Shown here one piece after another: positions 13,794-47,895 of a DNA stretch of 64,000 nt; position 1 is the stretch's first letter, and each line of letters opens with the position of its first letter. Location of the stretch: the NCBI RefSeq assembly GCF_000375585.1, contig NZ_AQWP01000002.1, forward strand, positions 372,001-436,000. Reading direction: 5' to 3'. This DNA is from Sinorhizobium meliloti 4H41 (GTDB lineage: Bacteria; Pseudomonadota; Alphaproteobacteria; Rhizobiales; Rhizobiaceae). Made by a program: the position numbers and the translations under genes. A model generated the notes under the pieces. The model saw nothing but the letters and a program-made list of their open reading frames with translations. It ran no database searches and was not told where the DNA came from.

Positions 13794-13803
13794 GATGTCC
13801 TCC

Positions 13804-17619: not shown

Positions 17620-17658
17620 GGATGCTCCCTGGACTCCTCGTTCAAATTCGAAGCCATT

Positions 17659-18723: not shown

Positions 18724-18726
18724 GGA

Positions 18727-19254: not shown

Positions 19255-19386
19255 ACCGCCTGCCCTAGAGAAGGCTATAGCGGCAACGGCGCGCGCCGAG
19301 AACGCGTTCGATCGAAGACCTGTGAGCCACGACAACCTCCGTGCTGGCATCGGGGAGCATCTCCCCTCGGGCGGAATGCCCTGACG

Positions 19387-25675: not shown

Positions 25676-25965
25676 GCCTTTCCCGTAGCATCGAAAGCGC
25701 CTGCCGCAAAGCTCCGTCCCGACGCGATTCCGCCGTGATTGCGTCACCGGCGGTCGCGGTGCGTTTCCGGCCTTCTTCAAGCGTTCTGGGGCGGGAGGAT
25801 GAAACCTGTGTGCGGTTTATTTTTCAGGATCTGAAAATTCTCGCGAGCTAGCTCAATTGCGACATGCGGTGCCGAGCCTGGCATTCAAGCCGTCGCGGCA
25901 AGAGCCTATATCCGCGCCATCGAAACCCCGCCGGAAAATTGCCCGGTCTCCCAAGGTAGAAAGTC

Positions 25966-26109: not shown

Positions 26110-26572
26110 AGCGCCACGTCGCGTTCGAAGCCGCCCCCTTTTCGGGGCGGCTGCTTCACGATTCCCGCCCTGAAATGCAAAAGCCGCACCCAACCGTTGG
26201 AATGGAAGGGTGCGGCGATCAGATCGTTCCGCTGAATATCGGGTCCGGTACGCACTACCTGATCCGGACCTGCGGCAGTCGCCCGCCGCAGGCAGACAAT
26301 TATCCCCACAACCTTACCGGATCGTTATTGAGGCCTTAACCAAAGGTGAATTTCGGCGATTTCGCCGTTCGCGTCCTCGGTACCGCGAGCTCCTCGCGGC
26401 GCAATATGCCGCCGGCGACCGGCGCCGGATCGAAAAGGTTGATTTCTCGACGCGAACACTTAGGCTTGCCGCAATGACAACGAAGTGGGCTGGCAGCTTC
26501 AGCGCGCGGGAGCGATTGGGCGGCGCTCCATCCACCATGTGTGGCCGCAGTGACGTGAAGGTGTCGACGGAC
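26110..26572. other. Intergenic region with two GC-rich hairpins upstream of the betaine-type binding protein
   Basis: Hairpin 1 (26127-26157) has GCCGCCCC/GGGGCGGC arms; hairpin 2 has GCCGCACCC (26183-26191) and GGGTGCGGC (26208-26216) arms. Neither is followed by a long T-run. No convincing gene is seen in the rest, which should contain the promoter of the downstream binding protein. Confidence 0.5.
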
Positions 26573-27571
26573 ATGAAAAAACTCCTTGCTACCCTCATCC
26601 TCACGGCGGGCATATGGTCTCTGGCGGGCCCTTCCGGTGCTGCCGAATGTGGCGGCGTCAGCATCGCCGAGATGGACTGGGCATCGGCGGGCGTCGCGGC
26701 TCACGTGGACAAGTTCATTCTGGAAACCGGCTATGGATGCAGCGTGAAGCTCGTCGCTGGCGACACGATGCTGACCTTTACCTCGATGAACGAGAAGGCG
26801 GAGCCCGACCTGGTGCCGGAACTGTGGATCAACTCCGTACGCACGCCTTTCGATGCCGCAATCAAGGAAGGCCGCCTCGTCGAAGGCGCCAGAATCTTGA
26901 GCGAAGGTGGGGTAGAGGGCTGGTGGATTCCGAAGTTCATCGCCGACGCGCACCCGGACATTCGAACGGTGCAGGACGCGTTGAAGCGCCCGGAACTCTT
27001 CCCTTCTCATGAGAACCCCGCAAAGGGAGCGGTCCACAATTGTCCTTCAACATGGAATTGCCGGTTCTCCACCGCCAACCTCTACAAGGCTCTCGAAGCG
27101 GACAAGGCCGGCTTCCAGCTGATCGATCCCGGTTCCGCTGCCGGGCTTGACGCGTCGATCGCCGATGCATTCGAGAAGAAGACCGGCTGGCTCGGCTATT
27201 ATTGGGCTCCGACCGCCTTGCTCGGCAAGTACGAGATGACCTTGCTGTCTTTCGGCGTGGATCACGACAAGGCGGAATGGGACTCCTGCACTGCCGCCCC
27301 GAATTGCCCGACCCCAAAGGTAAACTCCTATCCGGTCTCGGACGTCTATACCGTGGTGACCAAGTCCTTTGCCGATCGAGCAGGCAGCGCCATGGACTAC
27401 GTCCAGGCGCGGCAATGGGAAAACGCGACGGTAAACAAAGTTCTGGCTTGGATGGATCAGAACCGGGGGACGAACGAAAGCGCCGCCCGCTACTTCCTCG
27501 AAAACTTCCAGGAGATATGGACGCAGTGGGTAGGCCCGGAGGTCGCCGAAAAGGTGAAGGCCGCGCTCTAG
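26573..27571 (+). CDS. Glycine betaine/quaternary amine ABC transporter substrate-binding protein (OpuAC/ProX type)
   Basis: 332 residues. Signal peptide MKKLLATLILTAGIWSLAGPSGAA is followed by an OpuAC-like domain: CGGVSIAEMDWASAGVAAHVDKFILETGYGC, EPDLVPELWINSVRTPFD and GYYWAPTALLGKYEM. The Trp residues (EMDW, EGWW, YYWAP) fit the aromatic cages that bind quaternary ammonium in this family, but no single one can be assigned. The ATG at 26573 starts the signal peptide. The next gene on the strand is the matching ATPase, yet no permease gene lies between or near. Confidence 0.9.
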   Translation: MKKLLATLILTAGIWSLAGPSGAAECGGVSIAEMDWASAGVAAHVDKFILETGYGCSVKLVAGDTMLTFTSMNEKAEPDLVPELWINSVRTPFDAAIKEGRLVEGARILSEGGVEGWWIPKFIADAHPDIRTVQDALKRPELFPSHENPAKGAVHNCPSTWNCRFSTANLYKALEADKAGFQLIDPGSAAGLDASIADAFEKKTGWLGYYWAPTALLGKYEMTLLSFGVDHDKAEWDSCTAAPNCPTPKVNSYPVSDVYTVVTKSFADRAGSAMDYVQARQWENATVNKVLAWMDQNRGTNESAARYFLENFQEIWTQWVGPEVAEKVKAAL

Positions 27572-27800
27572 ATCACTGTGATCTTCGGTCGGATCGGCGC
27601 GAAATCGTGAAGGTGATGGATTCCAGCGCCCATTCGAGGATGCGGCTGCCTGATGCGCGACGCACGAGCCGCGCCTGCGTCGCAAACAGTAAAGCGGTCG
27701 GCGTGTTCCGCTGTCACAGTTCTGATGCAAGGAGCGGGAAGCGCCACGAAAACGCAGTCGGCGTAAAAGCTCCAAGCCAAGAGAAGGGGAAAGGTTGTCC

Positions 27801-28847
27801 ATGGCTAGTCACGCAATCGAGGTGAAGAACCTCTACAAGATTTTCGGCCCGCGCGGAGAGGATTACGTCAAACTCGTCGAGAACGGGATGGGTAAGGCCG
27901 AACTCAACGAAAAGCACGGCCACGTGCTCGGACTGCAGGACATCAACATTTCCATGCCGGGCGGCTGCATAACGGTCGTGATGGGGCTCTCGGGGTCCGG
28001 CAAATCGACGCTGATCCGGCACATCAACCGGCTGATCGATCCGACCTCGGGCGAAGTCCTCTACGACGGCGTCGACGTCTGCAAGATGAACGAGAACGAC
28101 CTTCGCGCATTCCGCCGCCACAAGACGGCGATGGTCTTCCAGAAGTTCGCACTGCTGCCGCATCGCACGGTTCTCGAAAACACCATCTACGGTCTTGAGA
28201 TACAGGGTGTCGATCGGCGCGAGAGCGAAAAGCGTGCGCTTGGCTGGATCGAGCGCGTCGGCCTTCAAGGCTTCGAGCAGCACTATCCGAACCAGCTTTC
28301 CGGCGGCATGCAGCAGCGCGTCGGCCTTGCCCGCGCGCTTACGAACGACGCCGACATCCTGCTGATGGACGAGGCCTATTCGGCACTCGATCCGCTGATA
28401 CGCGTCGACATGCAGTCGGTCCTGCTCGAACTGCAGAAGGAGTTGAAGAAGACGGTGGTCTTCATCACCCATGATCTCGACGAGGCCCTGAGGCTCGGCG
28501 ACAAGATCGCCATCCTGCGCGACGGCCGCGTCGTGCAGCAGGGAACCGGCCAGGAAATCGTGCTCTCGCCAGCCGACGACTACATCACGGCCTTTGTGAA
28601 GGAAGTGAACCGCGGGCGGGTGGTCAACGTGGAGACGATCATGCGGCCGCTCTCCGGAAACCCGGAAGGCCTGCCGCTCGCCGTAGGCACCGTGCTCGAA
28701 GCGGCTGCCCGCACCATGACCGGCGCGCAAATAAGCAACGCGCATGTCGTCGACGGCAACGGTCGCCCGATCGGTGCGATCGACCTGCAGATGATCATCT
28801 CCGCCATGGTGACGCCCGTGCAGCATACCGACCGGCAGGCGGCTTGA
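27801..28847 (+). CDS. Glycine betaine/proline-type ABC transporter ATPase (OpuAA/ProV type)
   Basis: 348 residues. The long N-terminal lead before Walker A (LSGSGKST), the EKHGHVLGLQDINIS insert, signature QLSGGMQQRVGLARAL and Walker B ILLMDEAYSALDPLIR are typical of ProV/OpuAA. The C-terminal part resembles a short CBS-like regulatory tail (about residues 280-340). ATG at 27801 has GAAAGG 6 bp upstream. It starts 229 bp after the binding-protein stop. The missing permease means it must pair with one encoded elsewhere, or be a remnant. Confidence 0.92.
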   Translation: MASHAIEVKNLYKIFGPRGEDYVKLVENGMGKAELNEKHGHVLGLQDINISMPGGCITVVMGLSGSGKSTLIRHINRLIDPTSGEVLYDGVDVCKMNENDLRAFRRHKTAMVFQKFALLPHRTVLENTIYGLEIQGVDRRESEKRALGWIERVGLQGFEQHYPNQLSGGMQQRVGLARALTNDADILLMDEAYSALDPLIRVDMQSVLLELQKELKKTVVFITHDLDEALRLGDKIAILRDGRVVQQGTGQEIVLSPADDYITAFVKEVNRGRVVNVETIMRPLSGNPEGLPLAVGTVLEAAARTMTGAQISNAHVVDGNGRPIGAIDLQMIISAMVTPVQHTDRQAA

Positions 28848-30317: not shown

Positions 30318-31331
30318 ATGTCCGTTGCAGCCCATGCTCTTTCCGATCTCCTCGCCCAGAAGGGCGTTCTGCTTGCCGATGGCGCCACAGGCACGTCGCT
30401 CTTCGCCATGGGGCTCGAAGCGGGCGAAGCACCGGAGATGTGGAACGAGACGAAACCGGACAACGTCACCAAGCTGCATCAGGACTTCGTGGATGCCGGC
30501 GCCGACATCATTCTCACCAATTCCTTTGGCGGCACACGCCACCGACTGAAGCTTCATCAGGCCGAAGACCGGGTCCACCAGCTCAACAAGCGGGCCGCAG
30601 AAATCGCGCGCGCCGTCGCCGACCAGGCGCCGCGAAAGGTCATCACGGCCGGATCCGTAGGCCCAACGGGCGAGCTGCTGATACCGCTCGGCACCCTCTC
30701 CTATGAAGACGCGGTCGCGGCCTTTGTCGAACAGATCGAGGGCCTGAAAGCCGGCGGCGCGGAGGTCGCCTGGATCGAGACCATGTCCTCTCCGGACGAA
30801 ATTCGTGCGGCCGCCGAAGCCGCGGCGAAGGTCGGCCTTCCCTATGTCTACACCGGTTCCTTCGACACCGCCGGCAAGACGATGATGGGCCTGCACCCGA
30901 AAGACATTCACGGCGTCGCCGCCGATATCGGCGACGGTCCGGTTGCCGTCGGCGCGAATTGCGGCGTCGGGGCGTCCGACATTCTTTCCTCGCTGCTCGA
31001 TATGACGGCTGCCAGCCCGGAGGCGACAATCGTCGTCAAGGGCAATTGCGGCATTCCCGAATTCCGCGGCTCGGAGATCCACTATTCCGGCACTCCGCCG
31101 CTGATGGCCGAATATGCCCGGTTGGCCGTCGACGCCGGCGCCAGGATCATCGGCGGCTGTTGCGGCACCTCCTGCAACCATCTGGCCGCGATGCGGCTCG
31201 CGATCGACAATCACACCAGGGGTGAACGCCCCACGCTCGATACGATCGTCGAGAAAATCGGTCCGTTGCGGAACAAATCGGCAAATGAAGGTCCCGCCGC
31301 CCCGGCCCGAGAGCGCCGTCGGCGCGCCTAA
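30318..31331 (+). CDS. bmt: Betaine-homocysteine methyltransferase-like S-methyltransferase
   Basis: 337 residues, homocysteine S-methyltransferase (pfam02574) fold. DGATGTSLFAMGL near the N-terminus, GSVGPTGEL, and the three Zn-binding cysteines Cys215 (VGANCGVG) and Cys281/Cys282 (IIGGCCGTSC) are all present. Transfers a methyl group from betaine or another donor to homocysteine, forming methionine. Rhizobia have a characterised Bmt in betaine catabolism, and the nearby betaine-type transporter and MttB cluster fit; an S-methylmethionine or other donor cannot be excluded. The C-terminus ends in a run of arginines (PARERRRRA). Confidence 0.88.
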   Translation: MSVAAHALSDLLAQKGVLLADGATGTSLFAMGLEAGEAPEMWNETKPDNVTKLHQDFVDAGADIILTNSFGGTRHRLKLHQAEDRVHQLNKRAAEIARAVADQAPRKVITAGSVGPTGELLIPLGTLSYEDAVAAFVEQIEGLKAGGAEVAWIETMSSPDEIRAAAEAAAKVGLPYVYTGSFDTAGKTMMGLHPKDIHGVAADIGDGPVAVGANCGVGASDILSSLLDMTAASPEATIVVKGNCGIPEFRGSEIHYSGTPPLMAEYARLAVDAGARIIGGCCGTSCNHLAAMRLAIDNHTRGERPTLDTIVEKIGPLRNKSANEGPAAPARERRRRA

Positions 31332-34093: not shown

Positions 34094-34798
34094 TTAAAGC
34101 TCGATCGCCGCCATATGGAAACGCAATTGCCCCGCCGGATAGCGATAGTCGCACCCCACCGGGCAGGCATCGCGGGACAGACAGCCGTGAGCAAGGCAGC
34201 CGGTCACCCCTTCTCCGGTTCTCAGATGCGCGCGACAGCGCCCCATATCGAACGTAGCGCCTGCCAAGGCGTCCGCCGGGCAGCCAGAAAGGCAGGGCCG
34301 TCCAATACAGCGTTCGCAGGGGTGGCCACCCGCCGGCTCGCCCGTCACCGGCATGGCTCGATCGAAGCCCAGCGCGCCGCGATAGCCGTGCCATAGGCCG
34401 TAGCGCGGATGAATGAGGATGCCGAGCGGCGACGGCTTCAGCCCCTCGGCACGCATTGCCCATTGCTGGAAGGGCTGCCAAGGGGGATCGGATGGAAAAT
34501 ACGCCGAGGCGCCTGCTGCCGCAGCCGCCGGGCGGATGACCTGCTTCGACCACTTGTCGAGCGGCTCCGCACCGCCGCCGTCCGGTTCGCCTTCGCGCCA
34601 CCGGCTGAAGGACTCCCAGACCGAGCCGCCGACATTGCCGATCAGCACGACGCTCGCCGCGGACTTGCCTCCTTCGAGCGTCGGCGCCCCCTCGCCCGGT
34701 GCGAAGTTCACGGTTCCGCGCAAAAAAAGACCGTGCGGCGCAAGCGCCGCACGGATGGTTTCAAGCACATCGCTTTCCGATGCGTAAGGAGCCGTCAT
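34094..34798 (-). CDS. Cys-rich ferredoxin-like protein beside mttB (QueG/4Fe-4S-like)
   Basis: 234 residues, cytoplasmic. The C-terminal third carries CERCIGRPCLSGCP (Cys161, 164, 169, 173), close to a 4Fe-4S motif, and five further Cys (188, 201, 206, 212, 216). The N-terminal part (VLIGNVGGSVWESF...PFQQWAMRAEGL) recalls the corrinoid-binding fold shared by epoxyqueuosine reductase QueG and CblC-type proteins, but I cannot confirm this by eye. It lies 107 bp after mttB on the same strand. A role in reducing or processing corrinoid for the methyltransferase system is an inference from position. Confidence 0.7.
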   Translation of the reverse strand: MTAPYASESDVLETIRAALAPHGLFLRGTVNFAPGEGAPTLEGGKSAASVVLIGNVGGSVWESFSRWREGEPDGGGAEPLDKWSKQVIRPAAAAAGASAYFPSDPPWQPFQQWAMRAEGLKPSPLGILIHPRYGLWHGYRGALGFDRAMPVTGEPAGGHPCERCIGRPCLSGCPADALAGATFDMGRCRAHLRTGEGVTGCLAHGCLSRDACPVGCDYRYPAGQLRFHMAAIEL

Positions 34799-34905
34799 TT
34801 CGGTTTCGGCCCTTGAGTTTCGTAATGCGGGCGCCAGACCTCTTTCTGTATCATATCGGCCACCTGCGCCGCGCCGCCTTGCTCCCTGGCTCGCTCGGGA
34901 GCCTT

Positions 34906-36480
34906 TCAGGTGAAGGCGTCGGGCATCGAGTCCTTCCGCTTGGCGATGAATTCCTTCAGCGCCTCGTCGATTGCCGGGTCGAGATAGGGCGCCTCATAGT
35001 TTTCGAGCCACGAGCGGGCGAGCGCGTTGGCGCGCTGTTCGATCCGCTTCTCGCCCTCGATCTCCCACTGCTCGAAGGAGTTGTTATCGGCGAGCGGCGA
35101 GCGATAGAAGGCGCTCTGGAAGTTCGCCTGCGTATGTGCACAGCCGAGATAGTGGCTGCCGGGGCCGACTTCGCGGATGGCGTCGAGCGCCTGCGCGTCT
35201 TCGGAAAGGTCCACGCCCTCGGCCATCTTCTGCATCATGCCGAGCTGATCCTGGTCGATCATGAACTTCTCGTAGGACGAGACGAGACCGCCCTCGAGCC
35301 AGCCGGCTGCATGCAGCACGAAGTTGGTGCCGGCAAGCAGCGTCATGTTCAGCGTATTTGCCGATTCATGTGCGGCCTGCGCATCCGGAACCTTCGAGCC
35401 GCAGAGCGAACCGCCGGTACGGAACGGCAGGCCGAGGCGGCGAGCCAGCTGAGCAGCGCCGTAGGAGACGAGCGACGGCTCCGGCGTGCCGAAGGTCGGC
35501 GCGCCCGACTGCATCGAAATCGATGCGGCGAAGGTGCCGAACAGCACCGGTGCGCCCTTGCGGATGAGCTGGGTGAAGGCCGCACCTGCGAGCACTTCGG
35601 CGAGGATCTGCGTCAGTGTGCCGGCGACCGTGACCGGGCTCATCGCGCCCGACAGGATGAAGGGCGAAACGACGCAAGCCTGGTTATGGCGGGCATAGAC
35701 CTTCGCGGCACCGAGCATCGTCTCGTCGAAGACCATCGGCGAGTTCGCGTTGATGAGGTTCAACGTCACCGCATTGTTCTCGACGAAATCGTCGCCGAAA
35801 AGGATCTTCGCCATTGCGACCGTGTCTTCGGCGCGCTCGGGCGCGGTGACCGATCCCATGAAGGGTTTGTCGGAATAGCGGATATGGCTATAGACCATAT
35901 CGAGGTGGCGCTTGTTCACGGCGATATCGACCGGTTCGCATACCGTGCCGCCCGAAGAGTGCATCGACGGCGCCATATAGGCGAGCTTCACGAAGTTGCG
36001 GAAATCCTCGATCGTCGCATAGCGGCGGTTGCCGTCGAGATCGCGCACGAAGGGCGGGCCGTAAACCGGCGCGAAGACGGTCGCCTTGCCGCCGATCTGA
36101 GCGCTGCGCTCCGGGTTGCGCGCGTGCCAGGTAAAATCCTTCGGCGCCGTCTTCAAGAGCTCGCGGCAAAGTCCCTTGGGGAAATGCACGCGTTGACCGC
36201 GCACGTCGGCACCAGCGGCCTTCCACAGATCGAGCGCTTCGGCATCGTCGCGAAACTCGATGCCGATCTCTTCGAGAACGACCTCGGCGTTGCGTTCGAT
36301 GAGCTGCAGCCCTTCCTCGTCAAGAACTTCGTATTCGCGAATCCTGCGCTGGATATAGGGCAGAGACGGTCCCGGGCCACCGCCGGTGCGGGAAGCGCGA
36401 CGCGCTGCCGCTCCCCGCCCCTCGCCACGCGCGCGGCGTCCGCCGCCTTCGGCCGCACCTTGTTCTGTAACGTCGCTCAT
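34906..36480 (-). CDS. MttB-family (non-pyrrolysine) methyltransferase
   Basis: 524 residues of the trimethylamine methyltransferase superfamily (COG5598). Family blocks include GKATVFAPVYGPPFVRDLDGNRRYATIEDFRN, SGGTVCEPVDIA, ENNAVTLNLINANSPMVFDETML, SPFILSGAMSPVTVAGTLTQ and GTPEPSLVSYGAAQLARRL. No internal TAG codon, so it belongs to the non-Pyl branch, whose characterised members demethylate glycine betaine, proline betaine or carnitine onto a corrinoid protein. Residues 10-40 form a Gly/Arg-rich low-complexity tail. It is divergent from the corrinoid protein gene across 509 bp. Substrate not deducible; betaine-like is favoured by context. Confidence 0.93.
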   Translation of the reverse strand: MSDVTEQGAAEGGGRRARGEGRGAAARRASRTGGGPGPSLPYIQRRIREYEVLDEEGLQLIERNAEVVLEEIGIEFRDDAEALDLWKAAGADVRGQRVHFPKGLCRELLKTAPKDFTWHARNPERSAQIGGKATVFAPVYGPPFVRDLDGNRRYATIEDFRNFVKLAYMAPSMHSSGGTVCEPVDIAVNKRHLDMVYSHIRYSDKPFMGSVTAPERAEDTVAMAKILFGDDFVENNAVTLNLINANSPMVFDETMLGAAKVYARHNQACVVSPFILSGAMSPVTVAGTLTQILAEVLAGAAFTQLIRKGAPVLFGTFAASISMQSGAPTFGTPEPSLVSYGAAQLARRLGLPFRTGGSLCGSKVPDAQAAHESANTLNMTLLAGTNFVLHAAGWLEGGLVSSYEKFMIDQDQLGMMQKMAEGVDLSEDAQALDAIREVGPGSHYLGCAHTQANFQSAFYRSPLADNNSFEQWEIEGEKRIEQRANALARSWLENYEAPYLDPAIDEALKEFIAKRKDSMPDAFT

Positions 36481-36989
36481 TCGCTCATTCCTCTTCCCGC
36501 GGTGCCCCGCGCATCATACGCGATGAACGCCGCAACACTTTGATGGGTGGGTGCATACCCCTTTCGCGAGGCTGATCCAGCGGCGGGCATATGCATCCGG
36601 TAGTCGATTTGACCTAATGCTACCAAGGCGCCGGACCGGTACGGGTCTTAATGCGCCAACGGCTGGCGCATCTTAGACACTCGGTCTGCGGTCGCTGCCA
36701 TTGCAGTCGTCTTTCGGCTGCTTCAGATCGGCACCGCGCAAGCGCCACTCTAACGCCTTGAAGTGCTGTATAATTTTGCAGGCGGCAGATTCCGAACCGC
36801 GGAATAATGCCGCCGCCGTCGCGTGGGAGCATTTACGCCGGGCGCCGTCGTTTTTCATCACATGCGACGTCGCTTTCAACAAGAGATTTTTAGGTATAGC
36901 CCGCTAAGGATTGGGCGACGCGTCCGGATTGCGCCCTCTCTCGTGCCACCCGTGCGAAATGACTGTGCCAGGAACCGAGGAACCCAACT
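36481..36989. promoter_or_regulatory. Divergent control region between mttB and the corrinoid protein gene
   Basis: 509 bp without a convincing gene. A perfect plus-strand TATAAT lies at 36769-36774, but with no good -35 at standard spacing. The length suggests room for a long leader or regulator sites for both transcripts. No B12 box was seen. Confidence 0.5.
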
Positions 36990-37688
<699 letters not shown>

Positions 37689-37702
37689 GACGATCCGAAA
37701 TG

Positions 37703-37745
37703 AAAAAGCCGGCTGCCCGTGTGAACGAGCAGCCGGCTTTTTTTT
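37703..37745 (+). terminator. Rho-independent terminator after the corrinoid protein gene
   Basis: AAAGCCGGCTGC ... GCAGCCGGCTTT stem (GC-rich, 12 bp arms) followed by a T-run to 37745. It isolates the corrinoid protein gene from the downstream DUF1638 gene, and the reverse orientation has an A/T-run too, so it may also serve the entericidin transcript. Confidence 0.9.
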
Positions 37746-37776
37746 CGGAGAAAGCGTCGATCTTGCGCTCAGGCCG

Positions 37777-37935
37777 TCAGTTGGCGGCCCTGGCGACCCG
37801 ATGGCCGGCTCCCTGTGTCGCGTTTACTGCGTTTGCAGTATCCTGTCCTACGCCGCGGATCGTGTTTGCGCAGGAACTCAGGGTTGCCAGCGCTATCAAA
37901 ACGGCTCCGATGGTCGCGATGGATTTTGTCGTCAT
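37777..37935 (-). CDS. Entericidin-like small lipoprotein
   Basis: 52 residues: MTTKSIATIGAVLIALATL, lipobox ending at Cys22 (LSSC), then ANTIRGVGQDTANAVN, the entericidin A/B core. AAAGGAA lies upstream of the ATG at 37935. A membrane-anchored lipoprotein of the EcnAB family, linked elsewhere to stationary-phase or stress programmes. It lies antisense between the corrinoid protein and DUF1638 genes, and its start is only 37 bp from the DUF1638 start, so the two genes share a control region. Confidence 0.85.
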   Translation of the reverse strand: MTTKSIATIGAVLIALATLSSCANTIRGVGQDTANAVNATQGAGHRVARAAN

Positions 37936-37972
37936 GACCGTGATTCCTTTGTTGATGCAAGGCGGAATAAAG

Positions 37973-38593
37973 ATGGAAAACGCAACGTCGGCAAGAGAAC
38001 GTGCACAACCGAAGAAAGTTCATGTCATTGGTTGCGGCGCGATCGCGCGCGAAATTCTTGCCGTCTGCGCGGCCAACGGGCTCGACCACATCGAGCTCAA
38101 CTGTCTGCCGGCCATCTGGCACAACACGCCGGAAAAGATCACTCCGGGCCTGCGTGAGGCTATCACCCGGGCGCGCGCCGACGGTTTCGAGCGCATCTTC
38201 ATCGCCTATGCCGATTGCGGCACCGGCGGGCTTATCGACCGCCTCTGCGAAGAGGAACGGGTGACGCGCATCCCGGGGCCGCATTGCTACTCGTTCTTTG
38301 CCGGAAACACGGATTTCGCAGCCCGCTGGGACGATGACATCACAGCCTTCTTCCTGACGGATTTCCTTGCCCGGCAGTTCGAAGCCTTCGTCATCGAGCC
38401 GCTCGGCCTCGACCGGCACCCGGAACTGCGCGACATGTATTTCGGCCACTACCGCAAGCTCGTCTATCTCTCCCAGCAGGAGGACGCGGTGTTGCAGGAA
38501 AAGGCGCGTCGCGCCGCCGATATTCTCGGGCTCGAATATGAGTACCGCTATACCGGCTATGGCGATCTCACGACATCGCTGATCGAGATTTGA
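37973..38593 (+). CDS. DUF1638 protein of corrinoid methyltransferase clusters
   Basis: 206 residues. VHVIGCGAIAREILAV, HIELNCLPAIWHNTPEKI, IFIAYADCGTGGLID and GPHCYSFFAGN are DUF1638 blocks; conserved Cys in GCG, NCLP, DCGTGG and HCYSF suggest metal or corrinoid handling. DUF1638 genes recur beside methylamine-type and MttB methyltransferase genes. No biochemical function is established to my knowledge. ATG at 37973 is preferred for the GGCGG upstream. Its promoter must lie in the short gap to, or within, the antisense entericidin gene. Confidence 0.85.
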   Translation: MENATSARERAQPKKVHVIGCGAIAREILAVCAANGLDHIELNCLPAIWHNTPEKITPGLREAITRARADGFERIFIAYADCGTGGLIDRLCEEERVTRIPGPHCYSFFAGNTDFAARWDDDITAFFLTDFLARQFEAFVIEPLGLDRHPELRDMYFGHYRKLVYLSQQEDAVLQEKARRAADILGLEYEYRYTGYGDLTTSLIEI

Positions 38594-38678
38594 TCCCTCT
38601 GAGCCGGCGTTTGTGCCGCCCGAGGGAATAGTTGGGCGCCGTCACATGTCCTATCCAATTCACGATGGGAGAGAGACA

Positions 38679-38846
38679 ATGGCCCGCAGATCGACGATAC
38701 TCGCAGCCGCGATTGCCCTTTTGACACTCGCCGGGTGCATGACAAATCAATCCAGCCGAAACACGATGAACCCTGCCGGAAGCAGTTCCACCAACTCCGG
38801 CGGCAGCAGCATGGGCAGTTCGGGAGGCGGCAGTTCGGGTTACTGA
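38679..38846 (+). CDS. Small Ser/Gly-rich lipoprotein
   Basis: 55 residues. Signal MARRSTILAAAIALLTLAGC with lipobox LAGC (Cys20), then a low-complexity Ser/Gly/Asn tail (SSSTNSGGSSMGSSGGG). GGGAGAGAG precedes the ATG. No recognised family. Probably an outer- or inner-membrane lipoprotein. Confidence 0.7.
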   Translation: MARRSTILAAAIALLTLAGCMTNQSSRNTMNPAGSSSTNSGGSSMGSSGGGSSGY

Positions 38847-38909
38847 GCCACACTTCGGCGCGACGCGCTTTTAAGGCCGCCCGTTACCGACGGACGGCCT
38901 CGCGACACA

Positions 38910-39377
38910 TCAGTAATACGGCGAATAGCACTGCTGTCTTGGGCCACCATAGGGCTGATAGGAATTGTCCGCAGCGCGGTACGAGCGGTAGCGGTCATAG
39001 CACCAGTTGACGTGGCTGGAAGGCAGTCCCGGCGCCGCATAGCGTGGCTCTGCGTAACGCGGCTGGGCGATGGCGCCGCCGATGATCATGCCGGCACCGA
39101 AGGCTCCCAGAGGATACCACCAGCCGTCGCTGTGGCGGCGGTAGCCGTGGCGGCGATAGCTGTAGCCGCGATGCCCGTTATACCAGCCGTGACGATGGCC
39201 GTGCCGGCGCCAGCCGTGCCGCGGGCGATGTCGGTGACCGTGCCAGCCGCGGTGGCCGACCGTCTGCACGTCGCTCGCCTGCGACACCGGAACGGTCGGG
39301 AAGGGCATAGCTTGCGCAGGCGCATAGGCGGTGAAAGCCGTCACAGCCGCGAGGAACAGTATCCCAATCTTCTTCAT
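38910..39377 (-). CDS. BA14K-like secreted protein, His/Arg/Tyr-rich
   Basis: 155 residues. Signal peptide ([23 protein letters not shown]), a His/Arg/Gly/Tyr-rich central region, one hydrophobic Gly-rich segment ([14 protein letters not shown]), and a C-terminal [25 protein letters not shown] motif. The last is the BA14K signature known from Brucella and widespread in Rhizobiales. Function in rhizobia is unknown. It lies opposite to the surrounding methyl-transfer genes. Confidence 0.88.
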
Positions 39378-39682
39378 CTCCACACCTATCTGTTCGAATA
39401 GGTCAGAGCTTTTGCCGCCGGCCAGGTGAACACGCAGTGAATGCAAGATTCATGATATTCTTAAGGACCATCCGAAGGCCGGTGCACGCCTATTCCCGGT
39501 CCTTTGTCGCCGCCGATAAGGCAGGCATTTCGCCGTGCCGGCACAAGCGGTGCGCTCCGCGAACGCAAGGTTCGGATGCGCGATCGTGCAGCGTCGTTTT
39601 TGGACATATCGGACGTCGTGGCAAGGTGAGCCACGGCGCGTGGACATGCGCATTGTCGCCCCTATAGGAGAACAGGAATCCG
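39378..39682. other. Intergenic region before the metVF-like operon
   Basis: About 305 bp between divergent genes. Contains AGGAG (39667-39671) as part of the ribosome site for the downstream gene. No recognisable promoter boxes, RNA gene or small gene were found. Confidence 0.45.
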
Positions 39683-39985
39683 ATGGCAGACCGCATTATC
39701 GTCTACTGGCGCGATATCCCCGCGCAAGTCATCATCAAGCAGGGCCGCAAGACCGCCAAACGCGAGCTCTCTCTGCGTTTCACCGAGGCGATCGACATGT
39801 GCGCCATGCGCACCGGAGCCGCCGAGACCGACGACTACCTTGCCGAATGGCGCAAGGCCGATCCCGTTCCGGTCTCCGACGACCTCGAGGCGGAAGCCGA
39901 CAGGGCGGCCGCGGAGTTGGAAGCCGCCTATGACCGGGAGCGCCTCGTCGCACTCGTCAAGGCCGGAGGCCGGGACAATGCCTGA
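39683..39985 (+). CDS. Small 'virulence factor' domain protein (PF13769-like)
   Basis: 100 residues, acidic, cytoplasmic. MADRIIVYWRDIPAQVIIKQGRKTAKRELSLRFTEAIDMCAM resembles the Pfam domain named Virulence_fact, whose name is historical. First gene of a tight operon; its stop overlaps the next start by 8 bp. Its invariable place before MetV-like genes suggests a partner of that enzyme, but no activity is known. Confidence 0.72.
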   Translation: MADRIIVYWRDIPAQVIIKQGRKTAKRELSLRFTEAIDMCAMRTGAAETDDYLAEWRKADPVPVSDDLEAEADRAAAELEAAYDRERLVALVKAGGRDNA

Positions 39986-40565
39986 CCCGAAGGTCGTCAC
40001 CGGCAACGCCCAGCCGGCCAGAAAGGCGGCGACGGGAGCCTATACGCCCCAGGGTGTGTCGCCCAGCCGCCGCTCGCGCCACAAATACACGGTACGTCTC
40101 TGGGCCGTGCGCAATTCGCGTTTCCTCGAGTGGTTCTACAACCGTTTCGCCGACATGTTCCTGCTTCTCCATCCGCTTTGGAACGCAATTGGCTACAACC
40201 GGGTTGAAAGGCCTGTCACCTTCGTCGAGCGTCACGTCAAGGGCTTCCTCTTCGACTGTCGCATGTGCGGCCAGTGCGCGTTGTCCTCAACCGGTATGTC
40301 GTGCCCTATGAACTGTCCGAAACAGCTGAGGAACGGCCCCTGCGGCGGCGTACGCGCAAACGGCAATTGCGAAGTCGAACCGGATATGCCCTGCGTCTGG
40401 GTGCAGGCGTGGAAGGGCTCGCAGAACATGGTGAAGGGTGATGCAATCATGAACGTGCAGAAGCCGGTCAACCAGTCGCTGCGCGAAACCTCGTCCTGGT
40501 TGCGGGTAACGGCCGAGGCCGCGGCCGCCCGCGAAGCGGCGAACAAGGAAGGTCCGCAGCAATGA
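39978..40565 (+). CDS. MetV-like Cys-rich subunit of methylene-THF reductase (MTHFR_C domain)
   Basis: 195 residues. Eight Cys: 94, 97, 100 (CRMCGQC), 109, 113 (CPMNC), 122, 131 and 139, in the domain annotated as methylene-THF reductase C-terminal (PF12225). In acetogens this protein, MetV, binds an Fe-S cluster or Zn and joins MetF in a MetVF reductase. ATG at 39978 overlaps the upstream stop by 8 bp and its own stop overlaps metF by 4 bp (ATGA). This arrangement implies a MetVF-type complex in a probable aerobe. Confidence 0.85.
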   Translation: MPDPKVVTGNAQPARKAATGAYTPQGVSPSRRSRHKYTVRLWAVRNSRFLEWFYNRFADMFLLLHPLWNAIGYNRVERPVTFVERHVKGFLFDCRMCGQCALSSTGMSCPMNCPKQLRNGPCGGVRANGNCEVEPDMPCVWVQAWKGSQNMVKGDAIMNVQKPVNQSLRETSSWLRVTAEAAAAREAANKEGPQQ

Positions 40566-41653
40566 GTCCGGACATCAATCCCCACGATCCCGGCGCACCG
40601 CTCGATCCCCTGCCCGGCCATTCCTCGCGCGGGCGGTTGGAGCGCGTGCTGCGCCGCGGCGAGTTCGCAGTGACCGCCGAACTCAATCCGCCGGACAGCG
40701 CCGATCCCCAGGACGTCTACGAGCGAGCGGCAGTCTTCGACGGATGGGTGGACGGCATCAATGCGGTCGACGCTTCAGGCGCCAACTGCCACATGTCATC
40801 CGTCGGCATCTGCGCGCTCCTGACGCGCATGGGCTATGCGCCGATCATGCAGATCGCCTGCCGCGACAAGAACCGTATCGCGATTCAGGGCGACGTGCTC
40901 GGCGCCTCGGCCATGGGTGTCCAGAACATCATGTGCCTCACCGGCGACGGCGTGCAGGCGGGCGACCAGCCCGGGGCCAAGCCGGTTTTCGATCTCGACT
41001 GCATGTCCCTGCTCGAGACGGTGCGCATCATGCGCGACAATTCCAAGTTTCTTTCGGGCCGCAAGCTGACGACGCCGCCTCAGGTATTCCTCGGAGCGGC
41101 GATCAACCCCTTCGCTCCGCCCTATGATTTCCGCCCCTATCGCCTCGCCAAGAAGATCGAGGCCGGCGCACAGTTCGTGCAGAGCCAGTATTGCTTCGAC
41201 GTTCCGATGTTTCGCGAATACATGAAGAAGGTGCGCGATCTCGGTCTTCACGAGAAGTGCTACATCCTGGTGGGCGTCGGGCCGATGGCATCCGCCAAGA
41301 CTGCCCGCTGGATCCGCTCCAATGTTCCGGGCATCCACATTCCGGACAGCATCATCAAGCGGCTCGAGGGCGCCCAAGACCAGAAAAAGGAAGGCAAGCA
41401 GCTCTGTATCGACATCATGAACGAGGTGAAGGAGATCGAGGGCGTTTCCGGCGTCCACGTCATGGCCTACCGCCAGGAAGAGTATGTTGCCGAAATCGTC
41501 CATGAATCGGGTGTCCTGAGGGGCCGCAAACCCTGGACTCGCGAAGCCGCGCCGACCGATGCGCTGGTTGCGGAGCGGCTGGAGCATATCCGCGAAGGCA
41601 AAGAAGAAAATCAGCAGCAGATGGCCGAGGCCGCTGCGCACCACCCGCATTGA
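40562..41653 (+). CDS. metF: Methylenetetrahydrofolate reductase MetF-like
   Basis: 363 residues, TIM-barrel FAD enzyme family. Blocks: EFAVTAELNPPDSADP, IMQIACRDKNRIAIQGDVLGASAMGVQNIMCLTGDG, and QSQYCFDVPMF. In a methyl-degrading pathway it would run as methyl-THF oxidation to methylene-THF, the reverse of its usual biosynthetic direction. Overlaps the MetV-like gene by 4 bp. Unlike the Escherichia coli enzyme (about 296 residues) it has an extended C-terminus (after about 330). Confidence 0.92.
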   Translation: MSPDINPHDPGAPLDPLPGHSSRGRLERVLRRGEFAVTAELNPPDSADPQDVYERAAVFDGWVDGINAVDASGANCHMSSVGICALLTRMGYAPIMQIACRDKNRIAIQGDVLGASAMGVQNIMCLTGDGVQAGDQPGAKPVFDLDCMSLLETVRIMRDNSKFLSGRKLTTPPQVFLGAAINPFAPPYDFRPYRLAKKIEAGAQFVQSQYCFDVPMFREYMKKVRDLGLHEKCYILVGVGPMASAKTARWIRSNVPGIHIPDSIIKRLEGAQDQKKEGKQLCIDIMNEVKEIEGVSGVHVMAYRQEEYVAEIVHESGVLRGRKPWTREAAPTDALVAERLEHIREGKEENQQQMAEAAAHHPH

Positions 41654-41656
41654 GAC

Positions 41657-41678
41657 AAAGCCGTGAGTCGGCGGCTTT
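41657..41678 (+). terminator. Possible weak terminator/attenuator after metF
   Basis: AAAGCCG (41657-41663) and CGGCTTT (41672-41678) form a 7 bp stem with an 8 nt loop in the 121 bp gap before the next gene. No T-run beyond the stem, so it may only reduce readthrough. Confidence 0.35.
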
Positions 41679-41774
41679 AGCAGAGGATAACCGGCGCTCC
41701 TGCTCGTCCAGCGCCTTACAAACACAGAACGGCCCTATTACATAGGCCAACGCTCAAGGTTCAGAGGATCTCAT

Positions 41775-42734
41775 ATGACCCGCACCATCGTCGCCTCCGC
41801 CACCCGCGAGATCATCATCGGCTTCGACCAGCCCTTCTGCGTCATCGGCGAACGCATCAATCCGACCGGCCGTAAGAAGCTCGCGGCCGAGATGATCGAG
41901 GGCAACTTCGACACCGTGATTAAGGATGCGCTGGAGCAGGTTGCCGCCGGCGCGACGATGCTCGACGTCAATGCAGGCGTGACGGCCGTCGACCCGAACG
42001 AGACCGAGCCGCCGCTCCTCGTCAAGACTCTGGAGATCGTTCAGGGCCTCGTCGACGTGCCGCTGTCGATCGACAGTTCGGTTACTGCCGCCATCGAAGC
42101 CGGCCTGCGCGTCGCAAAGGGCCGCCCGCTCGTCAACTCGGTGACCGGCGAGGAAGAGAAGCTCGAAGCGATCCTGCCGCTCTGCAAGAAATACGACGTT
42201 CCGGTGGTGGCGATCTCCAATGACGAGACCGGCATTTCGATGGACCCGGACGTCCGCTTCGCGGTCGCCAAGAAGATCGTCGAGCGCGCCGCCGATTACG
42301 GCATCAAGCCGCACGATATCGTCGTCGATCCGCTGGTCATGCCGATCGGCGCACTGGGATCTGCGGGCCAGCAGGTTTTCGCGCTGCTTCGCCGCCTTCG
42401 CGAAGAGCTCAAGGTCAACACCACCTGCGGCCTCTCCAACATTTCCTTCGGCCTGCCGCATCGCCACGGCATCAACGCCGGCTTCATCCCCATGGTGATC
42501 GGCGCCGGCATGACCTCGGCCATCATGAACCCCTGCCGTCCGCAGGAAATGGAGGCGGTTCGAGCCGCGAACGTGCTTAACGGCACCGATCCGAACTGCA
42601 CAAACTGGATCATGACCTATCGCGACCACAAGCCGGCCGAAGGCGGCCAGGCCGTCGCTGCGGCCGCACCGGCGGGTGCCGGCGGGCGGCGCGGCGGACG
42701 CGCGGCGCGTGCCGGCGTCGCACGGGCGGAGTAA
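41775..42734 (+). CDS. Methyl-THF:corrinoid methyltransferase (pterin-binding domain)
   Basis: 319 residues, dihydropteroate-synthase-like TIM barrel as in AcsE and MetH domain 2. GERINPTGRKKL (25-36), DVNAGVTAVDP, SIDSSVTAAIEAGL, NSVTGEEEKLEAILPL and CGLSNISFGLPHR are diagnostic of methyl-THF-corrinoid enzymes. Predicted to move the methyl group from the corrinoid protein to THF. The last 30 residues form an Ala/Gly/Arg tail (AGAGGRRGGRAARAG) absent from typical members. Two bp separate it from the next gene. Confidence 0.92.
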   Translation: MTRTIVASATREIIIGFDQPFCVIGERINPTGRKKLAAEMIEGNFDTVIKDALEQVAAGATMLDVNAGVTAVDPNETEPPLLVKTLEIVQGLVDVPLSIDSSVTAAIEAGLRVAKGRPLVNSVTGEEEKLEAILPLCKKYDVPVVAISNDETGISMDPDVRFAVAKKIVERAADYGIKPHDIVVDPLVMPIGALGSAGQQVFALLRRLREELKVNTTCGLSNISFGLPHRHGINAGFIPMVIGAGMTSAIMNPCRPQEMEAVRAANVLNGTDPNCTNWIMTYRDHKPAEGGQAVAAAAPAGAGGRRGGRAARAGVARAE

Positions 42735-42736
42735 AA

Positions 42737-43075
42737 ATGGCCAGGCACCACTCCTTCGCAAGCGACCTGGCGGCACTCTGGTTTCAGGCCCCCATGGTCA
42801 TAGCCGCGCGTACGCAGGCGATGGCCGTAGCCGCTATCACCGGCTCGGCAACCGACTATGTCGAGGCAAGCCGGATGGTGACCGAAAAGATGGCGGCAGT
42901 CGCCGAAAGCGTCGTCGCCGCCAATGTCGCCCTGGTGAAGGAAGGAATGGGTGCGGCCGCGGCGCTTGCCGCCGGAAAGCCGGGCTCTGCCGCCGCGCAC
43001 AACCGGATAGCGGCGGCCGCAGTTCGGCCCTATGCCAAGCGCGTGCGGGCAAACGCCCGCCGGCTCGCGAAATAA
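42737..43075 (+). CDS. Small Ala-rich protein of unknown function between methyltransferase and RACo genes
   Basis: 112 residues, about one quarter Ala, predicted helical: FQAPMVIAARTQAMAVAAITGSATDYVEASRMVTEKMAAVAESVVAANVALVKEG, ending in a basic segment (KRVRANARRLAK). No Cys, signal peptide or recognised domain. The amphipathic helical pattern is phasin-like, but that is only a resemblance. Two bp after the methyltransferase stop, 19 bp before RACo: clearly one transcript, so probably a dedicated helper of the corrinoid system. Confidence 0.75.
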   Translation: MARHHSFASDLAALWFQAPMVIAARTQAMAVAAITGSATDYVEASRMVTEKMAAVAESVVAANVALVKEGMGAAAALAAGKPGSAAAHNRIAAAAVRPYAKRVRANARRLAK

Positions 43076-43094
43076 ACTGCTGGCGAGACAGAAA

Positions 43095-45146
43095 ATGTTG
43101 AACGTGCCCTCGAAGGACGAAAAGAACGATCCGCTGGTGCTCTTCATGCCCTCCGGCAAACGCGGCCGTTTCCCCGTCGGGACGCCGATCCTCGATGCCG
43201 CACGTTCGCTTGGAGTTTATGTCGAAAGCGTCTGTGGCGGCCGCGCCACCTGCGGGCGTTGCCAGGTTTCCGTTCAGGAAGGCAATTTCGCCAAGCACAA
43301 GATCGTTTCGTCCAACGACCATATCTCGCCGATTGGTCCCAAGGAGCAGCGTTACGCGAGCGTGCGCGAATTGCCTGACGGGCGGCGGCTGTCCTGTTCG
43401 GCGCAGATTCTCGGCGATCTCGTCATCGACGTGCCGCAGGACACCGTCATCAACGCACAGGTGGTGCGCAAGGCCGCAACCGACCGCGTGATCGAGCGCA
43501 ATGCGGCGGTGCAACTGTGCTATGTCGAGATCGACGAACCGGACATGCATAAGCCGCTCGGCGATCTCGATCGGTTGAAGGTCGTCCTGGAAAAAGACTG
43601 GGGTTGGAAGGACCTTCTGATCGCCCCCCACCTGATCCCCCAGGTACAAGGCATATTGCGCAAGGGCAATTGGGCAGTGACTGCGGCGATCCATCGCGAC
43701 ATGGACTCCTCGCGTCCCTTCATTGTCGCTCTCTGGCCTGGACTGAAGAACGAGGCTTATGGCGTCGCCTGCGACATTGGCTCGACGACGATTGCGATGC
43801 ATCTCGTATCGCTGCTCTCCGGACGCATCGTGGCCTCCTCCGGCACATCGAATCCGCAGATCCGCTTCGGTGAGGATCTGATGAGCCGCGTCTCCTATGT
43901 GATGATGAATCCGGATGGCCGCGAGGCGATGACCAAGGCGGTACGCGAAGCGTTGAACGGCCTGATCGGCAAGGTCTGCGCCGAAGGCGAGGTCGACCGC
44001 CGCGACATTCTCGACATGGTCGTCGTCGCCAATCCGATCATGCATCACCTGTTCCTCGGGATCGACCCGACGGAACTCGGCCAGGCGCCCTTCGCACTGG
44101 CCGTCTCCGGCGCCCTGCAATATTGGGCGCACGAAATCGACATAGAGGTCAATCGCGGCGCGCGCCTCTATATGCTCCCGTGCATCGCCGGCCATGTCGG
44201 AGCGGACGCCGCGGGTGCGACGCTTTCCGAAGGGCCGCATCGTCAGGACAAGATGATGCTGCTCGTCGATGTCGGCACCAATGCCGAGATCGTGCTCGGC
44301 AACAGGGAGCGCGTCGTGGCCGCCTCATCGCCGACCGGACCTGCTTTCGAGGGGGCCGAGATCTCCTCCGGCCAACGAGCCGCACCCGGAGCGATCGAGC
44401 GCGTTCGCATCGATCCCGAGACGCTGGAGCCGCGGTTCCGGGTGATCGGCGTCGACAAATGGTCGAATGAAGAAGGTTTCGCCGAGGCCGCTGCGGCAGT
44501 CGGTGTCACAGGCATCTGTGGCTCGGCGATCATCGAAGTCGTCGCGGAGATGTACCTCACCGGCATCATTTCGCAGGACGGCGTCGTCGACGGCGCAATG
44601 GTCGCGAAGAGCCCGCGCATCATCCCGAACGGCCGCACCTTCTCCTATCTGCTCCACGAAGGCGAACAGCGCATCACCGTGACGCAGAACGATATCAGAG
44701 CGATCCAGCTCGCCAAGTCCGCGCTCTATGCCGGCATCAAGCTGCTCATGGAGAAACAAGGTGTCGATCACGTCGACACGATCCGGTTTGCCGGTGCCTT
44801 CGGCTCCTTCATCGATCCGAAATATGCCATGGTGCTCGGACTGATCCCCGATTGCGACCTCACCGAAGTGAAGGCGGTCGGCAATGCCGCCGGCACAGGC
44901 GCGCTGATGGCGCTCCTCAATCGCGGTCACCGCCGCGAGATCGAGCAAACAGTGAGGAAAATCGAGAAGATAGAGACGGCGCTTGAATCGAAGTTTCAGG
45001 AGCATTTCGTCAACGCCATGGCGATGCCGAACAAGGTGGATGCCTTCCCGAAACTCGCCGAAGTGGTTACCCTGCCGGCGCGCAAGGCACTGATCGACGA
45101 CGGCGGCGAAGGAGGCGGCCGCAGACGGCGACGCAATAGGGAGTAG
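43095..45146 (+). CDS. RACo-type reductive activator of corrinoid proteins (2Fe-2S + ASKHA ATPase)
   Basis: 683 residues. N-terminal plant-type 2Fe-2S ferredoxin domain with Cys47, Cys53, Cys56 and Cys101 (VCGGRATCGRC ... LSCSAQ), a linker, then an ASKHA-type actin-like domain: GVACDIGSTTIAMHLV, VANPIMHHLFLGI, LLVDVGTNAEIVLG and FAGAFGSFIDPKYAMVLGLIPDC. Reactivates Co(II) corrinoid proteins to Co(I) using electrons and ATP. ATG at 43095 is chosen because the ferredoxin domain begins there. It ends in a Gly/Arg run (GGGRRRRRNRE). Last core gene of the operon. Confidence 0.94.
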   Translation: MLNVPSKDEKNDPLVLFMPSGKRGRFPVGTPILDAARSLGVYVESVCGGRATCGRCQVSVQEGNFAKHKIVSSNDHISPIGPKEQRYASVRELPDGRRLSCSAQILGDLVIDVPQDTVINAQVVRKAATDRVIERNAAVQLCYVEIDEPDMHKPLGDLDRLKVVLEKDWGWKDLLIAPHLIPQVQGILRKGNWAVTAAIHRDMDSSRPFIVALWPGLKNEAYGVACDIGSTTIAMHLVSLLSGRIVASSGTSNPQIRFGEDLMSRVSYVMMNPDGREAMTKAVREALNGLIGKVCAEGEVDRRDILDMVVVANPIMHHLFLGIDPTELGQAPFALAVSGALQYWAHEIDIEVNRGARLYMLPCIAGHVGADAAGATLSEGPHRQDKMMLLVDVGTNAEIVLGNRERVVAASSPTGPAFEGAEISSGQRAAPGAIERVRIDPETLEPRFRVIGVDKWSNEEGFAEAAAAVGVTGICGSAIIEVVAEMYLTGIISQDGVVDGAMVAKSPRIIPNGRTFSYLLHEGEQRITVTQNDIRAIQLAKSALYAGIKLLMEKQGVDHVDTIRFAGAFGSFIDPKYAMVLGLIPDCDLTEVKAVGNAAGTGALMALLNRGHRREIEQTVRKIEKIETALESKFQEHFVNAMAMPNKVDAFPKLAEVVTLPARKALIDDGGEGGGRRRRRNRE

Positions 45147-46998: not shown

Positions 46999-47895
46999 TT
47001 ATGCCGCCTGCATCTGCAACTCGGCGAAGGCAGCGCGAACATGCTCCGCGACCGCCAAAACCGGCGCCGGCGCATCTTCGATGACCTTGAGGCCGATGTT
47101 GTAGTGACCTAGATCCGGCAGGCCGTCACGCTCGCCGAGCTGGACCATCTCGCCTTGGACGAGATACCGCGGCAGCGGCGCGATCGCGAGCCCGGCGAGA
47201 ACAGCCGCACGCTGTCCGGTCGTATAGGCGCTCAAAAAGGCCACGCGGAACTTGCGGCCCGCACGCGACAGCTTCTCGACCGCATCGGCACGCCAGACGC
47301 AGCCGTCCTCCCACATGGAAACCGGCAGAGGATCGCGCAGATGCGCGTTCCCGCATTTCGCACCTGCCCAGACCAGTTTCTCCTGCATCAGGATTTCTGC
47401 GCCTTTGGCAGAGTCCTCGGAAAGGCTGTTGAACACGGCGATGTCCAGCCGATGCTCGTCGACCCGCTTGCGCATCGCGTTGCTCATGCCGATCGAAACG
47501 TCGATGGTGACGTTCGGATACGTCTCGGCAAAGCGCTTCAATACATCAGGCAGAATTCGCTCGCCGACGTCCTCCGGCGCACCGACCCGCACCACACCGT
47601 TCATGTCTGGCAACAGGAAGCGGGACACCGTCTCGTTGTTGAGCGATAGAAGCCGCCGGGCATAGCCGAGCAGGAGTTCGCCCTTGGGCGTCAGCGACAC
47701 CGAGCGGGCGTCGCGCAAAAACAACGTGCAGCCGAGCATTTCCTCGAGCTTCTTGATCTGCATCGAAACGGCTGAAGGCGTGCGGTAGACCGTCTCCGCG
47801 GCGGTGGTGAAGTTTCCGGTCTCGGCAATGGCGACGAAAGTCTTGAGCACGTCCATTTCGAGCAGCGGAAGCGCGTGGCGCATCATCATGTTCAT
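46999..47895 (-). CDS. LysR-family transcriptional regulator next to DUF1127-like genes
   Basis: 298 residues. HTH MDVLKTFVAIAETGNFTTAAETVYRTPSAVSMQIKKLEEMLGCTLFLR and an LrhA-like effector domain (VRVGAPEDVGERILPDVLKRF). Divergent from a small gene, with a conserved motif between them. In Brucella and Agrobacterium a LysR regulator (VtlR) controls small DUF1127 genes; orthology here is not established. Start at 47895 (MNMMMRH); the true start could be a later Met, with little effect. Confidence 0.92.
   Translation of the reverse strand: MNMMMRHALPLLEMDVLKTFVAIAETGNFTTAAETVYRTPSAVSMQIKKLEEMLGCTLFLRDARSVSLTPKGELLLGYARRLLSLNNETVSRFLLPDMNGVVRVGAPEDVGERILPDVLKRFAETYPNVTIDVSIGMSNAMRKRVDEHRLDIAVFNSLSEDSAKGAEILMQEKLVWAGAKCGNAHLRDPLPVSMWEDGCVWRADAVEKLSRAGRKFRVAFLSAYTTGQRAAVLAGLAIAPLPRYLVQGEMVQLGERDGLPDLGHYNIGLKVIEDAPAPVLAVAEHVRAAFAELQMQAA

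Follow-up and report, generated by a model that had tools for sequence, protein, structure and literature searches.

Positions 34,094 to 45,146 of a 64,000-nucleotide stretch of the Sinorhizobium meliloti 4H41 genome (contig NZ_AQWP01000002.1; the whole stretch is referred to below as the window) carry a compact set of genes for corrinoid-dependent methyl transfer. By a Pfam search and NCBIfam models with their cut-offs we find here an MttB-type methyltransferase (MtgB), a corrinoid protein (MtgC), a DUF1638 protein, MetV, a MetF (MetF2), a methyl-tetrahydrofolate (methyl-THF):corrinoid methyltransferase (MtgD) and the corrinoid activase RACo. These matches bear out the pathway genes listed in the original prediction, which was made from the sequence alone, as well as the DxHxxG motif it had placed in the corrinoid protein, present as DIHDIG. 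Its three small proteins of no assigned function are probably a 234-residue protein (FeS234), a PF13769 protein and a phasin-like open reading frame (ORF), the last of which is not part of the core. We regard the locus as very probably the Sinorhizobium version of the aerobic MtgBCDE system for glycine betaine demethylation. The core of this system is already described, and the S. meliloti locus itself is pointed out in passages of Mausz 2025 (PMC12478193); what seems new here is the partnership with PF13769 and FeS234 as a remote cblC relative.

The corrinoid core and its gene order

The locus holds the genes by which an aerobic MtgBCDE system is recognised, namely an MtgB that lacks pyrrolysine, a stand-alone DxHxxG corrinoid protein, MtgD and a MetH-type MtgE. 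MtgB is a member of the MTTB family (PF06253, 775 bits) and is near-identical across 524 residues to Protein Data Bank (PDB) entry 4yyc (1182 bits), presumably itself an S. meliloti protein, and it matches the solved glycine betaine methyltransferase 9yce with 417 bits. When its frame was searched for an amber codon, no in-frame stop was found over the 524 amino acids, and against TIGR02369, the equivalog of the trimethylamine MttB with pyrrolysine, it scores 285 versus the 525 bits required. Since this cut-off is missed, MtgB is not the pyrrolysine trimethylamine enzyme, an identity that we reject on both grounds. MtgC combines B12-binding and B12-binding_2 domains, although it falls under the NCBI MtgC models (212 vs 370 and 172 vs 310 bits), and is the one strong stand-alone match in its own genome (6.79 Mb), an additional 24-bit match on C4 being weak. 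MtgD matches Pterin_bind with 100 bits and lies above the PRK07535 cut-off. Both reactivation proteins are present at the locus, each as a single copy in the genome: the RamA/RACo-like protein with RACo_C_ter (301 bits), RACo middle, linker and Fer2 domains, and the DUF1638 protein (PF07796, 91 bits), whose nearest named relatives among the matches listed are from Sinorhizobium/Ensifer, many of the listed homologues there being 206 amino acids long. The S. meliloti DUF1638 protein SMc04333 is among the altered proteins in a study of a polyhydroxybutyrate (PHB) regulator, according to a passage of PMC12542648.

To place these genes in a wider context we surveyed 142 alphaproteobacterial genomes from 140 genera, incomplete ones included (co-occurrence statistics from this set ignore phylogeny), and the best 80 of at least 581 stretches encoding a DUF1638 relative (at least 593 scanned), a locus set biased to Rhizobiaceae and Rhodobacteraceae. 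The order MtgC-DUF1638-PF13769-[MetV-MetF]-MtgD-RACo is found again in other families and is therefore not due to chance. Within the window each of the PF13769, MetV and MetF2 genes shares a few bases with the next in this series, and two bases separate the end of MtgD from the phasin-like ORF that follows, an arrangement that looks like an operon with coupled translation; the gap from DUF1638 to PF13769 is 1.1 kb. DUF1638 occurs in 25 of the 142 genomes, together with PF13769 in 23. One genome (G109, locus L031) has MtgC, PF13769, MtgD and RACo without a DUF1638 match, and another (G125, L027) combines DUF1638 and a RACo of reduced length but gives no PF13769 match, so that neither DUF1638 nor PF13769 is detected in all variants. 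We aligned 51 of the possible DUF1638 sequences; the stretch from the Rhizobiales isolate AFS017416 (L073, 10001-10642) contains one in-frame stop and was left out. The phasin-like ORF, which lies between MtgD and RACo and overlaps the RACo frame, was rejected as a core part, being found in 15/80 of the best loci and, among the 142 genomes, in its own genome only. An opposite-strand LysR gene stands downstream of RACo in the window and in 24/80 of the best loci, and is a candidate regulator.

Table 1. Features of the locus and associated genes in the window (positions count from the first letter of the window)
Feature	Position	Strand	Evidence
cobO 13149-13793, cobN 13804-17619, cobW 17659-18723, cobU/P 18727-19350	13149..19350	-	profile matches
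cobQ	24221..25780	-	profile match
OpuAC-type betaine-binding protein	26570..27571	+	PF04069 182 bits
ABC ATPase, ProV-like by resemblance	27795..28847	+	profile match
MtgE/Bmt homocysteine methyltransferase	30318..31331	+	PRK07534 586 bits, cut-off 338
FeS234, 234 amino acids, probable remote MMACHC (cblC)-like protein; C-terminal part ferredoxin-like with eight cysteines, probably dicluster	34094..34798	-	alignments, profile comparisons
MtgB, non-pyrrolysine MttB superfamily, probable glycine betaine:corrinoid methyltransferase	34906..36480	-	PF06253; 4yyc and 9yce matches
MtgC, stand-alone corrinoid protein, DIHDIG	36990..37688	+	Pfam, NCBIfam
DUF1638 protein, about 206 amino acids, start uncertain (frame open from 37610)	37973..38593	+	PF07796
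'Virulence factor' domain protein (PF13769), often found with the system	39683..39985	+	Pfam, genome and locus counts
MetV-like (PF12225), gene overlaps PF13769 gene	39978..40565	+	Pfam; start taken from reading frame
MetF2, non-canonical methylene-THF reductase, gene overlaps MetV gene	40562..41653	+	MTHFR; far under canonical MetF cut-off
MtgD, methyl-THF:corrinoid methyltransferase	41775..42734	+	PRK07535 401.5 bits, cut-off 259
Small phasin-like protein, restricted distribution	42737..43075	+	NF045536 45.5 bits, under cut-off 100
RACo/RamA-like corrinoid activase, start uncertain (frame open from 43032)	43095..45146	+	PF14574, PF17651, PF17650, Fer2
LysR-type regulator	46999..47895	-	profile match

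PF13769 and FeS234 as probable partners of the system

MetV (DUF5981, 96 bits) and MetF2 (MTHFR, 119 bits) show the features of a MetFV-type reductase, with a MetF2 that scores under canonical MetF and is paired with a DUF5981 MetV; because a canonical MetF is found at a separate site of the genome, MetF2 is a second copy. The PF13769 protein just upstream (Virulence_fact, 94 bits) has relatives in 26/142 genomes, every one of which also gives matches to RACo and to MttB (Fisher p 1.4e-24 each, phylogeny ignored). Moreover, 38 of the best 80 DUF1638 loci have MtgD and the same 38 have PF13769, while the other 42, mostly from Rhodobacterales or on short contigs, have neither within the stretch examined. 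MetV-MetF2 follows PF13769 in 28 of the 38 and a different MetF-like gene of about 300 amino acids in 6 (L051, L066, L072, L079, L080 and L087), giving 34/38 with a MetV-MetF or MetF-like gene downstream; in the remaining four (L049, L052, L054 and L077) MtgD comes straight after PF13769 with no such gene between, which weighs against a universal pairing. The second type of MetF-like gene also adjoins PF13769 in L017, L029, L031, L032, L034 and L036, and when five of these genes were compared with Pfam three were above the MTHFR cut-off and two (L017 and L032) had no match. The gap beside PF13769 gave no MetF-like gene in L021; in L009, L015 and L033 the MetF-like gene is near RACo rather than beside PF13769; and in G001 (L024, L035) PF13769 is separated from the cluster and has an alcohol-dehydrogenase-family gene nearby. 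These arrangements suggest a role of PF13769 in the MetF2/MtgD branch, as an apparently unreported partner of the system; we found no mention of 'PF13769' in the main texts of an openly licensed literature collection. The domain name, which we take to derive from CvfC of Staphylococcus aureus, is misleading in calling it a 'virulence factor'. One reference title connects the cvfC operon with the folate enzyme gene thyA; we regard this as a hint only.

FeS234 by itself matches no Pfam family at 1e-3. In its alignment eight cysteines of the C-terminal part are invariant, as are His, Gly and Arg residues around 'LIHP.YGLWH.YRG'; the conserved H130, W136 and R140 lie outside the cysteine part. At E<=1 the MMACHC family is matched by 11/21 FeS234 family members, all weakly (best E 0.0071), and Fer4_11 by 12/21; the window protein itself scores 12.3 bits against MMACHC (PF16690, E 0.13) and does not reach the Pfam cut-off of 27 bits. 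Additional support comes from the reverse search, in which the MMACHC model gave nine matches at E<=0.05 across the 142 genomes, 9/9 of them inside FeS234 homologues. Only that in G082 (1.9e-4) reaches E 1e-3, the remaining eight being at 0.008-0.05; no match in the 142 genomes exceeds the MMACHC cut-off, and the S. meliloti genome has none at E 0.05. With hhalign, whole FeS234 aligns with the queuosine enzyme QueG at 94% probability over 137 columns, the N-terminal part alone at 4-8% (E 0.01, 0.004) and the Fe-S part alone at 85-88%; because the N-terminal part is low and the Fe-S part high, much of this signal is ferredoxin. The N-terminal score (24.6) nevertheless exceeds all 60 column shuffles (maximum 22.6). 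The same part gives under 1% with DUF1638 and PF13769. The likeness to MMACHC/cblC concerns the MMACHC motif region, while that to QueG continues into the Fe-S part, and the QueG model TIGR00276 does not recognise FeS234, having a single match in the genome, on C1. MMACHC itself is not known to have an Fe-S domain.

Together these comparisons suggest that FeS234 is, at most remotely, an MMACHC (cblC) relative joined to an eight-cysteine ferredoxin-like part, and that it likely acts in B12 reduction or dealkylation feeding MtgC, and other B12 enzymes where MtgC is absent. Two observations weigh against this: each MMACHC match is short (about 23-41 of the 216 positions in the profile), and the tie to the corrinoid system is incomplete, as an independent protein search found homologues in 29 of the 142 genomes, 20 with RACo and 9 without a RACo match. 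That FeS234 is merely an electron-carrying ferredoxin for RACo, with no part in B12 processing, would account for the eight cysteines (probably two Fe-S clusters), for the PDB profile matches headed by ferredoxin-type subunits and for Fer4_11 being matched by one more member than MMACHC; against it stand the confinement of the MMACHC matches, weak as they are, to FeS234 homologues, the conserved residues beyond the cysteine part and the nine genomes without a RACo match, and we consider it rather unlikely. The gene is present in 34/80 of the best loci, all with MtgB, which it adjoins in 31 and from which it lies within about 3.5 kb in 3. Elsewhere its neighbour is MtgD-RACo (L037) or MtgC (L030, L027), and in G037 it is separated from an MttB gene by about 1.6 kb; outside Hyphomicrobiales it is frequently away from the cluster.

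The likely methyl donor and the methionine branch

The original prediction proposed that an aerobe moves a methyl group from a quaternary amine to THF, oxidises it by MetF and repairs the corrinoid with RACo. This route agrees with the genetics and proteomics of homologous systems in passages of PMC12478193; what it left out was the likely substrate, glycine betaine, the methionine role of MtgC and the upstream MtgE/Bmt. Its view of the pathway parts as anaerobe biology is outdated, given the aerobic corrinoid routes described in parts of PMC12478193 (MtgBCDE) and PMC13222342 (Cmu). Bmt/MtgE, the OpuAC and ABC-ATPase genes and the cob genes lie outside positions 34,094 to 45,146 yet are part of the system, and according to Mausz 2025 (PMC12478193, in part) S. 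meliloti has MtgBCDE, the two reductive modules and its cobalamin operon together in one place. The same source reports that Ruegeria pomeroyi mutated in mtgC or mtgD requires added methionine and fails to grow on glycine betaine even when methionine is supplied. Demethylation and methionine synthesis thus both depend on MtgC and MtgD in that species.

The published data diverge on how Bmt/MtgE makes methionine. As a true betaine-homocysteine methyltransferase (BHMT), corrinoid-free and independent of MtgB and MtgC, it would fit the purified Phaeobacter inhibens Bmt, which forms methionine from betaine without cobalamin and is active in vitro with betaine and dimethylsulfoniopropionate (DMSP), and the S. 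meliloti metH mutant restored by betaine through Bmt (Barra 2006), both as given in portions of PMC12366255. Against this, the window protein is nearer to MetH homocysteine domains (up to 138 bits) than to the solved BHMT 1lt7 (45 bits), and S. meliloti-type MtgE homologues lack the betaine-binding residues according to Mausz 2025 (PMC12478193, in part), who reinterprets the bhmt data of Barra 2006 and explains the second betaine pathway noted in S. meliloti in 2006 by the corrinoid route. We judge a corrinoid-free Bmt unlikely.

The genome encodes four MttB homologues, the window copy and three further ones found in the 142-genome search: a solitary gene 55% identical to MtgB; a gene 37% identical to it, in whose vicinity an OpuAC-type binding gene, an enolase-superfamily enzyme and a DAO-GCV_T oxidoreductase are encoded; and a gene adjoining a pair of DAO-GCV_T oxidoreductases, an aldehyde dehydrogenase being more distant. 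The window MttB might thus take another quaternary amine (proline betaine, carnitine or butyrobetaine) and a paralogue, such as the solitary one, glycine betaine; its position near Bmt, betaine-binding and cob genes and its high score against the glycine betaine methyltransferase of known structure make this improbable. Two of the paralogues (L122 1448-14669 and L123 9124-15701) have OpuAC-type or DAO-GCV_T (dimethylglycine-dehydrogenase-like) neighbours, which suggests other quaternary amine demethylation modules. Because there are four MttB but one strong MtgC, one RACo and one DUF1638, several methyltransferases probably share a single corrinoid core in this genome, as suggested for bacteria with many MttB homologues by Mausz 2025 (PMC12478193, in part).

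A complete MetH (C40, activation domain 411 bits) is retained elsewhere in the genome with the canonical MetF, so the Mtg set is additional to the standard enzymes; MetH is lacking in about 70% (108/156) of the MtgBCD genomes of Mausz 2025 (PMC12478193, in part), and Price 2018 (PMC5764234, in part) calls the presence of the genes in S. meliloti, which has MetH, unexplained. That the cluster serves chiefly as another methionine synthase, running from MetV-MetF2 methyl-THF through MtgD, MtgC and MtgE to homocysteine with demethylation minor, is very doubtful, for although homologues form a split methionine synthase in P. inhibens (Price 2018) and MtgE is closest to MetH domains, complete MetH and canonical MetF lie elsewhere, mtgB is inside the cluster, and on N-osmolytes R. 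pomeroyi raises two MtgB candidates, MtgC, MtgD and MetF2 and slightly lowers MtgE (PMC12478193, in part).

Several points weigh against glycine betaine demethylation by the window genes. Sequence gives neither substrate nor direction of flow, any of the three further MttB proteins, one of them 55% identical, might be the glycine betaine enzyme instead, and the cobalamin-free activity of the P. inhibens Bmt speaks against a purely corrinoid-dependent MtgE. Moreover, no permease gene was found between the betaine-binding and ATPase genes (27572-27794, 223 bases), the one weak permease match elsewhere in the window being at 9106-9618; the window and some relatives thus have an incomplete local transporter. 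A permease gene is present between the two genes in six related loci (L049, L055, L056, L063, L070 and L075), and L053, which is cut at its start, also has it. A peculiarity of this genome was rejected as the reason, for L052 is arranged as in the window and L054, L066 and L072 have the binding gene alone.

Proposed mechanism and wider significance

In the MtgBCDE system that we favour for the locus, MtgB would transfer one methyl group from glycine betaine, the predicted substrate, to cob(I)alamin on MtgC, and MtgD would pass it from MtgC to THF. MetF2 with MetV would then convert methyl-THF to methylene-THF for one-carbon oxidation, if flow runs in this direction, a branch in which PF13769 may assist, while in an alternative branch MtgE/Bmt would make methionine by handing the methyl group to homocysteine. 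RACo, assisted by DUF1638, would re-reduce MtgC after cob(II)alamin has formed in air, and FeS234 may handle the cofactor for MtgC by reductive dealkylation or B12 reduction. More tentatively, we can envisage that Alphaproteobacteria have a counterpart of human cblC with a built-in Fe-S electron source, which would strip or reduce B12 so as to load and rescue the demethylase and methionine-synthase corrinoid proteins in air, and that PF13769 is a hitherto unrecognised subunit or chaperone of the methyl-THF-oxidising MetF2.

Similar to this locus, whose host is probably an aerobe, the MtgBCDE system of R. pomeroyi and P. inhibens (glycine betaine demethylase and split methionine synthase) works in an aerobic host and comprises an MttB-family enzyme, MtgC, MtgD, MtgE, MetF2, a RamA/RACo-like protein and DUF1638; here they form one compact unit that also includes MetV, PF13769 and FeS234. 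MtgABC of Desulfitobacterium hafniense likewise has a non-pyrrolysine MttB homologue, a corrinoid protein and a methyl-THF methyltransferase, but in an anaerobe, and the MtgC described here is below the NCBI MtgC models. The Cmu chloromethane pathway shares aerobic corrinoid-dependent methyl transfer, although CmuA joins methyltransferase I and corrinoid protein in one, belongs to the UroD superfamily and acts on chloromethane (PMC13222342, in part).

The locus agrees with recent evidence that B12-dependent demethylation, once deemed anaerobic, also operates in aerobes, rhizobia included. Within this system FeS234 could fill a gap in how usable B12 is delivered to corrinoid proteins in aerobes, and the link to PF13769 could fill another, the function of the domain behind the 'virulence factor' name.

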